The translations under genes were made by a program, and so were the position numbers. A stretch of DNA of 64,000 bases from Prochlorococcus marinus str. GP2 (lineage in GTDB: Bacteria; Cyanobacteriota; Cyanobacteriia; PCC-6307; Cyanobiaceae): the NCBI RefSeq assembly GCF_000759885.1, contig NZ_JNAH01000004.1, forward strand, positions 248,001 to 312,000. Reading direction: 5' to 3'. This document shows positions 5,116 to 8,258 of this stretch, piece by piece. The notes under the pieces are model-generated. The model saw only the letters and a program-made list of their open reading frames with translations. It ran no database searches and had not been told where the DNA came from. Position 1 is the stretch's first letter. Every line of letters begins with the position of its first letter.

Positions 5116-5700
5116 ATGAGCTTACGAGTTGGACAAGAAGCACCCGATTTTAGTGCTACAGCAGTATATGATCAAGAGTTTAAGGAAATTACACTTTCAG
5201 GTCTTAAAGGTAAGTGGGTCGTTTTATTCTTTTATCCATTAGACTTTACTTTTGTATGCCCAACCGAAATCACTGCATTTAGTGATAGATATAATGATTT
5301 CTCATCACTTAATACGGAAATTCTCGGTGTATCAGTAGATAGTAAACATTGTCATCTTGCGTGGATACAAACTCCTAGAAACGAGGGCGGAATAGGTGAT
5401 ATAAAATACCCTTTAGTCTCTGACTTAAAAAGAGAAATATGCCAAGCATACAATGTTCTTAATGATGATGGAGAAGCTGATAGAGGTTTATTCCTAATCA
5501 ATCCAGAAGGCATAGTTATGCATACAACTGTAAATAAGGCCCCTGTCGGCAGAAATGTTGATGAAACACTAAGAATACTTCAAGGTTATCAATATGTTGC
5601 TGCAAATCCAGATGAAGTATGTCCAGCAAACTGGACCCCAGGTGAGAAAACAATGTTAGAAGATCCTAAAGGCAGTAAAGAATATTTTTCTGCACTGTAA
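5116..5700 (+). CDS. 2-Cys peroxiredoxin
   Basis: Thiol peroxidase of the typical 2-Cys (AhpC/TSA) class that reduces hydrogen peroxide and alkyl hydroperoxides using thioredoxin. At 194 residues it is full length. The peroxidatic cysteine is C48 in FTFVCPTE and the resolving cysteine is C169 in EVCPANW. A C-terminal YF motif (KEYFSAL) is present, as in peroxidation-sensitive eukaryotic and cyanobacterial enzymes. Upstream is a 300-base gap that should hold its promoter. In picocyanobacteria this enzyme is a main defence against photosynthetic peroxide. Confidence 0.95.
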
Positions 5701-5716
5701 TAAAGACTTATTGCAT

Positions 5717-6469
5717 TTAAGTAAGTATTGAATAATAAAAAATTATAAAAAAATAAAATATAAAAATTTTAAAAAGGGGGTTCATATCCCCCTTACTTGG
5801 TTTATGAATGATCCAGTCGCTTAAATTAGATTTATAAGATAAGAAAGACCATGTAAAGTAAAATATTTCTATTAAGAGCAGGTTTAAAACATTAATTAAA
5901 TTTATGTTATCTAATTGATAATACTTATAGATATGAAATTGATCATCAATTTTTATATTATTAATTTGCAGATACCAAATAAAAAAAGATATAAAAATAA
6001 AATTTATTAATATTAGTTTTTTAAATAAACGCCGAGATTTCATAAAAATAAGAAAGATAGCAACAAAAAATACAAAAATGAATAATTGAAGAATCTCAGG
6101 TTCTTGAAAATTGACGCCTTCGAGAAATAAATTAGTTATCAGATCAAAATTTATATAAAAATATTCAGTTATTAAATAAGATAGAAATAACAAATTTACT
6201 ACTACTAATAATAATAAAGCTTTCCCTTTAATTATTTTATTACTAGCAATCTTATACTCATTAAATTTATAGTATGTAAAGTTATTTAATGAGTTAAAAC
6301 ATATTAAAGATGGACATATAATGCCACTTAAATAGTAAAGGATTGAATAAAAAGAAATATTGTTTATATTGAATAAATATAAATTAAACCATTGTTTTTG
6401 GACAAACGGAAGAATAAGTAAGAATAAAAGTGAAATTATTAAACTTGTTGAGTTGTTTTTAATTATCAA
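5717..6469 (-). CDS. Polytopic membrane protein of unknown function
   Basis: 250 residues with about six to seven hydrophobic segments (roughly 10-25, 37-57, 85-105, 127-145, 150-168, 195-213 and 232-248). No catalytic motif is recognised. It starts 34 bases after the stop of the FtsH-like gene on the same strand and is very probably co-transcribed with it, which suggests a functional link in membrane protein quality control. A hairpin resembling a terminator falls inside its last 25 codons (5774-5794). Confidence 0.65.
   Translation of the reverse strand: MIIKNNSTSLIISLLFLLILPFVQKQWFNLYLFNINNISFYSILYYLSGIICPSLICFNSLNNFTYYKFNEYKIASNKIIKGKALLLLVVVNLLFLSYLITEYFYINFDLITNLFLEGVNFQEPEILQLFIFVFFVAIFLIFMKSRRLFKKLILINFIFISFFIWYLQINNIKIDDQFHIYKYYQLDNINLINVLNLLLIEIFYFTWSFLSYKSNLSDWIIHKPSKGDMNPLFKIFIFYFFIIFYYSILT
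5774..5794 (-). terminator. Terminator-like hairpin inside a gene's 3' end
   Basis: Perfect 7-bp stem AAGGGGG/CCCCCTT with a 7-base loop. Read on the minus strand the stem is followed by a short run of T (TTT, then AAAATTT). It is coding for the last part of the membrane protein. In an A+T-rich genome such a G-rich stem is conspicuous, but the weak U-tract and coding location make a terminator role uncertain. Confidence 0.3.
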
Positions 6470-6503: not shown

Positions 6504-8258
6504 TCAAACTTTCAACAATTTAGAAGTTGTTAATTTAAATTCTTCTTTATCTATAGTTTCCAGGGTCAATAACATATCAACTAATTTATCAAGTAGAACT
6601 CTATTTTTTTTCAATATTTCTATTGAATTATTTAATGAAATTTTGGAAATCTTTATTACCTCATTATCAATTCTAGAACTGGTATTTTCGGCTATAAGAG
6701 GCTTTCTTGTAAATAACCCTTCTCCTAAATACATTTCACTATTACCAGAGTCCATTGAAATTGGACCAATAATAGAAAATCCATATTTTGTAACCATTTC
6801 TCTTACAATGTTTGTCGAATAAGAAATATCGTTTAGGGAACATTGTGTAATTTCATTTTCACCAAAAACTATAGTTTCTGCAGCTCTTCCAGCAAGAGCA
6901 ATTTCAATTTTTGAGAATAATAATTTTTTTGAAATCAAGCCGCTAGAAATAACATCTTCATCTGGGCATATTTTTGTATAACCTCCTAAAGATCCTGATC
7001 TAGGTAAGATTGTAATCTTATCAACTGATTCAATTCCATTTCTCACAGCAGATACAATTGCTCTTCCTACTTCGTTATAAGCAATAATTTTTTTCATATT
7101 TGAAGAAGTTATTGATGAACATCTCAGTCCGATTGTAATTTTATCTAAAGCATTTTCTATATGAAAATCATTAATAGATTTAGATGCATCTCTTGCGCAA
7201 TGAATGGCACTCTCGTTCATTAAATTTGCAAGGTCTGCCCCAGAGAATCCAGCTGTTCTTGAAGCCCAATATCCTAAATCAACTTTGCTTGAAAGTGGCT
7301 TAGAAAGAGAATGAACTGAAAGAATTTTTTTCCTTCCATCTAAATCTGGAAGCATTACTTCTATTTTTCTATCAAATCTTCCTGGTCTTAATAATGCTGC
7401 ATCCAGAATATCCGGTCTATTTGTTGCCGCTAAAACAATAATGCCTGAATTATCAGCAAAACCATCTAATTCAGTAAGAAGCTGATTAAGGGTTTGCTCT
7501 CTTTCATCATTTCCACCTCCGATACCAGAACCTCTTTGCCTACCAATTGAGTCAATTTCATCAATAAAAATTATACAAGGAGATTTTTCCTTAGCTTTAG
7601 CGAAAAGATCTCTCACTCGGCTTGCTCCAACACCAACAAAAAGTTCTACAAACTCTGATGCCGCTATTGAGAGAAAAGGAACTCCTGATTCTCCGGCAAT
7701 TGCTTTAGCCAATAGTGTTTTACCTGTCCCAGGAGGACCGATTAAGAGAACTCCTCTGGGAACTTTTGCTCCAAGATTTTCAAATTTTTTAGGTTCTTTT
7801 AAAAAAGTTATTACCTCTTTTAATTCCTCAGCCGCTTCAGGAACACCAGCTACATCATCGAATCTTGTTTCTACATCATCAATGGTTACAAATTTAGCTT
7901 GATTTTTAGTAAATCCAAAGGCTCTGGAAGCTAATTTTGAGGTACTTCTCAAAATTAAAACTATAGCAAATATAAAAATCAAGAAAAGACTGATTGAAGC
8001 AAATGAATTAGCTGCTGAGGATTCTTTTCTACTATTGTTAACAGTAAGTTCTACTTTGTTTTCAGAAGCCTTTTCAAGGATTAATTGGTCATTATAAAGA
8101 ATAGGTATTTTAATTTTATCTCCATTTTTATACAGAACATCAATTTCTCTTTGCCTAGGATAGAAAAAAATTGATTCGATGTTCCCCGACTCTATATCTT
8201 CTAAAAGATCGGAATAACTTGATTTAGAATTTGAATATGAGAATTTTGATCTAAACAC
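6504..8258 (-). CDS. FtsH-like AAA+ protein, probably protease-inactive
   Basis: 584 residues, shorter than the usual 600-640. The AAA+ domain looks intact: Walker A GPPGTGKT (174-181), Walker B IIFIDEID (229-236) and an arginine-finger region [20 protein letters not shown] (278-297). The zinc site is not: where FtsH has HEAGH, this protein reads NEVGR (395-399), so both histidine ligands are gone while the later aspartate (in LNDIS) remains. Only one membrane span is seen (about 85-103). The usual N-terminal first span is absent, and a stop codon just upstream of the GTG start (Shine-Dalgarno AAGGA) excludes a longer version. It resembles plastid FtsHi pseudo-proteases and may unfold substrates or modulate active FtsH hexamers. 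Confidence 0.85.

Follow-up and report, generated by a model that had tools for sequence, protein, structure and literature searches.

Why would a streamlined Prochlorococcus genome keep an FtsH whose protease domain lacks its zinc ligands? The gene that raises this question occupies positions 6504–8258 on the minus strand of the window—the whole stretch of 64,000 nucleotides analysed here—and encodes 584 amino acids from a GTG start. Family profiles, alignment and tree identify the product as a pseudo-protease FtsH, the Prochlorococcus 'FtsH4' and an orthologue of FtsH1. It scores 644.7 bits against TIGR01241 (FtsH_fam; cut-off 600), which places it in that equivalog family, and matches the Pfam families AAA, Peptidase_M41 and FtsH_ext. 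Active FtsH zinc proteases are recognized by HExxH (HExGH being the FtsH norm); residues 395–399 of the window protein read NEVGR instead (7062–7076, minus strand). When 34 FtsH rows are aligned, among them the window protein and L170, a second mutated sequence, histidine at 395 and 399 is nearly invariant (at least 90%). Catalytic Glu396 and Asp477, at the position of the third zinc ligand (6828–6830, minus strand), are retained, and the motor motifs are intact: Walker A GPPGTGKT (residues 174–181; 7716–7739, minus strand), Walker B IIFIDE (FIDE at residues 231–234; 7557–7568, minus strand), the pore motif FVG, and RPGRFDR with the arginine finger. An earlier note on this DNA had claimed that HEAGH is replaced by NEVGR, leaving only glutamate and aspartate beside an intact AAA+ motor, and sequence and alignment bear this out. 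In the following, g, G and L denote genera, genomes and loci (or alignment rows), the window genome being G000 of genus g1.

An AlphaFold2 model of the window FtsH (mean pLDDT 80.5, pTM 0.61) comprises a complete N domain, one long helix (residues 81–113) and the M41 helices, with NEVGR carried on the helix formed by residues 386–407. Mean pLDDT ranges from 76 to 96 across the M41 block, residues 501–520 being poorly modelled (42–43), and the M41 fold is shown by this prediction to be retained. The best solved matches in Foldseek were chains of FtsH, Ycf2-FtsHi, AFG3L2 and YME1.

Neither histidine is present in any of 62 same-genus (g1) loci (61 NEVGR, one NEGGR; identity down to 73.5%), which form a subset of the genus orthologues, some of them taken from a separate search. 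Among these loci the loss is fixed, and the related strains with an intact HEAGH that the earlier note had named as evidence against its reading are absent from these 62 loci. Since all 62 lack both histidines, sequencing error is excluded, and with the g1 frames also free of internal stops, a sequencing or frameshift artefact is an explanation to which we give practically no weight.

Outside g1, the motif is more diverse. Orthologues read NEVGK or, at L068, HEAGR in g22; NEAGK, NEIGR or YEIGR in g7; QIIGK in g32 (six rows); and RNASK in g2 (G151, L113). Across 29 mutated rows, both histidines are gone in 28, L068 alone retaining the first, and the position of the second is taken by arginine or lysine in all 29, as in all 62 g1 loci. 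That this residue supplies a built-in cation in place of zinc is an idea only; given one origin of the mutated forms, it may reflect plain inheritance. The zinc site is HEIGH or HEVGH in each of the remaining 42 Cyanobiaceae rows (28 genera), and in the single g14 genome, where the neighbouring gene lies at a contig end, the orthologue was not seen. How rare such a loss is can be gauged from the best 80 FtsH each of a public genome scan and a viral contig scan: 159 of these 160 carry HExxH, the sole exception being L170 from Prochlorococcus sp. AG-442-M23, which reads NEVGR and is 82% identical to the window FtsH. As a side observation, the best 80 contigs classed as viral (L249–L328) encode FtsH, every one with an intact HExxH.

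The residues that remain might be taken to mean that the protein still cuts, using another metal site or mechanism: Glu396 is kept in all 62 g1 loci, and the Asp477 position is aspartate in 58 of them (asparagine in three, histidine in one). Both histidines are gone, however, the aspartate is replaced by asparagine, glutamate or histidine in some rows, and the glutamate itself is missing from g32 and G151, so that we regard continued proteolysis as very improbable. The motor, by comparison, is uniform. All 29 mutated rows have Walker B FIDE and pore FVG; Walker A is GPPGTGKT in 27 (GAPGTGKT in L082, GSPGTGKT in L113), a motif that varies also in the zinc-intact rows L094, L121 and L132; and RPGRFDR is found in 27 (RAGRFDR in L137, RAGRFDK in L113).

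With the motif columns excluded, all mutated rows fall into a single clade (20 rows, SH-aLRT 99), which kept a support of 98 in a 15-row tree from which the longest row had been excluded; the software flagged long branches (g2, g7, g32) and unusual letter composition. A three-paralogue tree of nine genomes—unrooted, and with one weak inner fork (61/40)—separates two zinc-intact genomes from the other seven with a support of 92/98. The single clade of mutated rows places the loss of the zinc site once, in the common ancestor of g1, g2, g7, g22 and g32. The HEAGR of L068 demonstrates that the second histidine can go alone, and its loss was therefore probably the first step, ahead of that of the first histidine.

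Has the gene been decaying since? Within g1, where as many as 1302 non-independent pairs fall in the dS range of 0.1–1.2, median dN/dS is 0.037 (AAA domain), 0.104 (M41) and 0.055 (N domain); within g32, the corresponding medians are 0.059, 0.089 and 0.101 (11 pairs). Judged by these ratios, both AAA and M41 are under purifying selection, and the low values in g1 and g32 show that the window FtsH orthologue is no pseudogene. Every g1 row listed by the genus search has an open frame uninterrupted by stops. An orthologue row at an identity of at least 74% was obtained for 117 of the 151 genomes of the genus, and for 49 of the 52 that are at least 90% complete. The peroxiredoxin-type gene on the far side of ftsH and the short gene that follows it (5116–5700, plus strand; named by eye) served as an anchor for apparent absences. 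Eight of the 34 genus genomes without a row were checked (G016, G026, G080, G094, G099, G100, G103 and G129, which include the three that are at least 90% complete); seven of them also lack a close peroxiredoxin match, and in G094 the contig ends within ftsH and only the tail is present, so that loss is shown in none of the eight. At the family level, gene loss was considered for five of 200 genomes and is shown in none: G151 holds a very diverged orthologue (L113), G163 and G194 have the peroxiredoxin gene at the edge of a contig, and its close match is missing as well in G265 and G317. A search with an L32 peptide, run without a positive control, gave no matches in 12 genomes and is given no weight.

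FtsH4 nevertheless evolves several-fold faster than the three paralogues of the same genomes. Between G000 and G247 it differs by 0.31 in AAA and 0.65 in M41, versus 0.07 and 0.19 for the paralogue of the L001 type (see below), and the zinc-intact pair G166–G159 (L066, L064) is likewise fast (0.24/0.40 versus 0.03/0.08 for AAA/M41). Decay specific to M41 was considered but has little in its favour: the whole protein is fast, and the paralogues show roughly the same ratio of M41 to AAA differences (uncorrected). An acceleration that already affects zinc-intact relatives, together with further decay in G151 (RNASK, RAGRFDK) and QIIGK in g32, would fit a vestige—a subunit that its complex no longer needs, encoded by a gene in decay. 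We think this unlikely in view of the g1 dN/dS of 0.037–0.104, the open g1 frames, the retained motor motifs and the finding that each checked absence coincides with a missing neighbour or a contig end. What stands is the earlier note's suggestion of a conserved pseudo-protease with an intact motor in a streamlined genome; the protein is under purifying selection, and the genome also encodes three zinc-intact FtsH.

The same note had found the first membrane span missing, which reading frame and hydropathy confirm: the frame opens only two codons before the GTG, immediately after a stop, and the protein has one hydrophobic span only. This predicted membrane helix, extension included (residues 81–113 of the model, hydrophobic core 85–103; 7920–8018, minus strand; hydropathy and AlphaFold2) follows the N-terminal extracytoplasmic FtsH_ext domain (approximately residues 14–73 in the model; PF06480 match at residues 10–74; 8040–8219, minus strand), which is complete despite the absence of a first span ahead of it. 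The missing span and the missing ligands, listed together in the note, do not belong to one event. No hydrophobic segment precedes FtsH_ext in 30 of 32 Cyanobiaceae rows, zinc-intact ones included (best 19-residue mean at most 1.11), and the far-upstream segments of L124, L131 and also L080 lie in extended frames that are probably non-coding. All ten more distant, class-level cyanobacterial rows (L095, L096, L098–L101, L105, L106, L108, L112) have such a segment ahead of FtsH_ext (means 1.29–1.95), ending in AxA-like motifs (AFAQ, ALAQ, VVAQ and others) and resembling a cleavable signal. With the span absent from zinc-intact Cyanobiaceae and the segment present in distant rows, it seems to have been lost at the base of the family, before the loss of zinc, as a separate, older trait common to zinc-intact relatives.

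A cleavable signal in the distant FtsH1 orthologues would leave a single-span mature protein there, too. i-AAA has one membrane span. The note's concern that residues usually in the lumen would end up on the wrong side of the membrane is softened, since zinc-intact relatives share the single-span layout, distant rows carry a signal-like segment and the charges are biased: the 20 residues before the hydrophobic core contain three Lys/Arg and three Asp/Glu, the 20 after it five and none. This distribution fits a protein that crosses the membrane once, its N domain lying outside and its motor inside. According to a statement in a review, mature plant thylakoid FtsH may have a single span as well (PMC9020784).

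The 1.62-Mb G000 genome encodes four M41 proteins, of which the other three retain HExGH; this answers the note's question about FtsH copy number with one mutated and three zinc-intact copies, and HExGH is likewise present in all 26 paralogues fetched from nine genomes. One of the three, L001 (HEAGH), we take from its motifs to be FtsH3-type. In the tree, ten paralogue rows fall on one side of a branch (support 99) and the window FtsH falls with one FtsH from each other cyanobacterial genome. The Synechocystis counterpart of picocyanobacterial FtsH4 is FtsH1, a match described as 'less obvious' than the other pairs in section 22 of PMC6300248, and the Synechocystis FtsH1/3 complex is stated to be essential for reasons that have stayed elusive (PMC11287208).

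As FtsH4 equals FtsH1 in print and FtsH1/3 is essential, we favour—at about even chances—a mixed FtsH hexamer in which the mutated protein has been selected as a non-proteolytic motor subunit that pulls, leaving the cutting to an active paralogue. FtsH4 would join the ring via AAA+ and M41 contacts, its partner being most likely the FtsH3-type L001; it would contribute ATP-driven pulling and ring geometry, the partner would do all the cutting, and the resulting complex might degrade its substrates more slowly or more selectively, or else extract proteins from the membrane. The role in regulating active FtsH hexamers that the note had envisaged is likewise presumed, by extension from the published Synechocystis FtsH1/3 pairing. 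Some observations count against the mixed ring. A subunit closely fitted to a conserved partner would not be expected to evolve as fast as FtsH4 does. In addition, FtsH4 appears to be little expressed in MED4, as suggested by an ftsH transcript pool that is, at growth light, balanced among isoforms 1–3 (PMC6300248, section 22).

The strongest rival to the mixed ring draws on the gene next door. Here, FtsH4 would assemble into a hexamer of its own and, free of protease activity, act as a translocase or chaperone for membrane proteins together with a truncated UPF0182 product, much as Ycf2-FtsHi does but with a separate origin—possible, to our minds, yet clearly less probable than the mixed ring. 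The gene concerned (5717–6469, minus strand; 250 amino acids, multi-span) lies downstream of ftsH and co-oriented with it, and profile–profile comparison identifies it as a remnant of UPF0182 (PF03699), namely of its membrane-spanning N-terminal portion; the earlier note had overlooked it. On the other side, the divergent neighbour is rpmF for ribosomal protein L32 (8390–8560, plus strand; named by eye and by motif). Among the Cyanobiaceae loci examined, the rpmF motif accompanies ftsH1 at all 11 that are mutated and at 18 of the 20 with an intact zinc site (not L058 and L129); outside the Cyanobiaceae, the motif search found it at L096, which belongs to another family, and not at L095 or L106.

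In zinc-intact relatives, a UPF0182 gene (PF03699, mostly ~930–990 amino acids) lies downstream of ftsH1 and co-oriented with it. It is directly next in the genomes examined of g17, g10, g8, g29, g30, g33, g19, g15, g13 and g3 (adjacent frames being assigned from match positions, with Pfam run on four), ~3 kb further on in G173 (g24), G153 (g4) and G169 (g20), and far away and unlinked in G185 (g4), G351 and G363. At mutated loci of g1, g22, g7 and g2, its place is taken by a close, co-oriented, multi-span frame of ~250–276 codons (further copies at L068:3261–4064, L063:665–1453, L073:646–1473 and L113:3294–4004). Within g1 the short gene is kept at 58 of 62 loci, the four misses being contig-end cuts, with a dN/dS of 0.34, and 57 of the 58 copies end in an SDW/TDW motif. 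The close pairing and the retention of the short gene suit an own hexamer with a linked partner, as does the fast evolution of FtsH4, which could reflect release from a conserved partner. It is weakened by the two g32 loci examined, which retain FtsH with no short gene after it, and by two of three g7 loci (L083, L086), where the first ATG, GTG or TTG comes late and gives 118 and 127 amino acids.

The relationship of the short gene to UPF0182 emerges from profiles. Pfam returned no PF03699 match at E 1 for window 5717–6469, L068, L073 or L113, and weak blastp matches to relatives (composition correction off) were not relied on. Profile–profile alignment to the UPF0182 N-terminus, collinear over nearly the whole length of the short gene, reached E 5.1e-15 (probability 98.4) with the four sequences from g22, g7 and g2 and E 6.3e-5 (probability 64.5) with seven from g1, versus 0.087–0.24 for reversed profiles; with columns shuffled 60 times, the lowest E against UPF0182 was 0.042 for the g1 set and 0.28 for the g22/g7/g2 set. 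The two short-gene sets matched each other at E 5.9e-7, compared with 0.0058 for the reversed g1 profile against the g22/g7/g2 set.

A UPF0182 match occurs in 143 of 200 family genomes and 27 of 34 genera; the genera without one are g1, g2, g5, g7, g14, g22 and g32, derived by subtraction from the listed rows, with 37 unmatched genomes unlisted. A direct search found UPF0182 in 16 of 16 zinc-intact genomes and in none of 14 from g1, g2, g7, g22 and g32 (G151 gave a match of 13 bits only, below the cut-off). By genus, it is present in 27 of 28 zinc-intact versus zero of five mutated genera, which speaks for the own hexamer; because the mutated state arose once, however, the contrast amounts to one coincidence on one branch, a single case rather than a statistical association. 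A strict pairing of the two losses was rejected, given that G154, G241 (g5) and G320 lack a UPF0182 match yet have HExGH (L070, L077, L116). g5 and G320 represent separate UPF0182 losses with the FtsH1 zinc site intact, which again tells against the own hexamer, and in the wider class the match is missing from 24 of 116 genomes. The literature searched named no function for UPF0182 in cyanobacteria, nor did it contain a link between UPF0182-type proteins and FtsH in mycobacteria.

Carried to its end, the association would make FtsH1 and UPF0182 partners in Cyanobiaceae that were stripped together in one Prochlorococcus clade, where FtsH gave up its cutting site and UPF0182 its large C-terminal part, to leave a minimal, ATP-driven two-gene membrane machine that pulls without cutting, an independent parallel to Ycf2-FtsHi. 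We put this forward as a rather improbable conjecture. The linkage of the UPF0182 gene offers a first candidate partner for this membrane-protein family. More broadly, very abundant phototrophs have naturally removed the cutting site from the specific subunit of FtsH1/3 while its motor stayed under selection, and if the mixed ring that we favour is true, the FtsH1 subunit could be essential for something other than its own proteolysis.

One inactive FtsH (FtsHi) was previously counted in Prochlorococcus marinus SS120 by manual motif inspection (Mishra et al. 2019, PMC6460958), a count repeated in PMC8197885, and this is very probably the same orthologue as the window FtsH. In its accessible text, the report gives the count without stating which FtsH is meant or addressing its spread, origin, selection or neighbours. 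The literature searched, which included few subscription papers, does not describe which FtsH the inactive SS120-type protein is, how widespread it is, that it arose once, how it is selected or which gene is linked to it. New here are the orthologue group, its single origin, its retention and the linked gene; the presence of one inactive FtsH in SS120 was already known.

Among known systems, the ClpR subunits of the Clp protease are likewise inactive members of a mixed proteolytic ring, in an unrelated family (PMC8197885). The plastid FtsHi proteins (FtsHi1–5, and the Ycf2-FtsHi motor) share with the window FtsH an intact AAA+ domain and a mutated HExxH, for which PMC11266112 tabulates NEAAM in FtsHi2 and WAAGR in FtsHi5. 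The earlier note's likening of the two is thus apt in kind. A review assigns FtsHi to FtsH groups distinct from those related to photosynthesis (PMC9020784), and the window protein belongs to the cyanobacterial FtsH1 group. It is, unlike plastid FtsHi, a compact bacterial FtsH1 orthologue with one span, encoded mostly beside a UPF0182 remnant. A further comparison is Synechocystis FtsH1 (slr1390, the FtsH1/3 subunit), whose orthologue group the window FtsH joins by the tree, the rpmF neighbour within Cyanobiaceae and the published correspondence; the trees contain no Synechocystis sequences, the slr1390 assignment coming from section 22 of PMC6300248. Unlike Synechocystis FtsH1, the window FtsH has neither the zinc ligands nor the first N-terminal hydrophobic segment.
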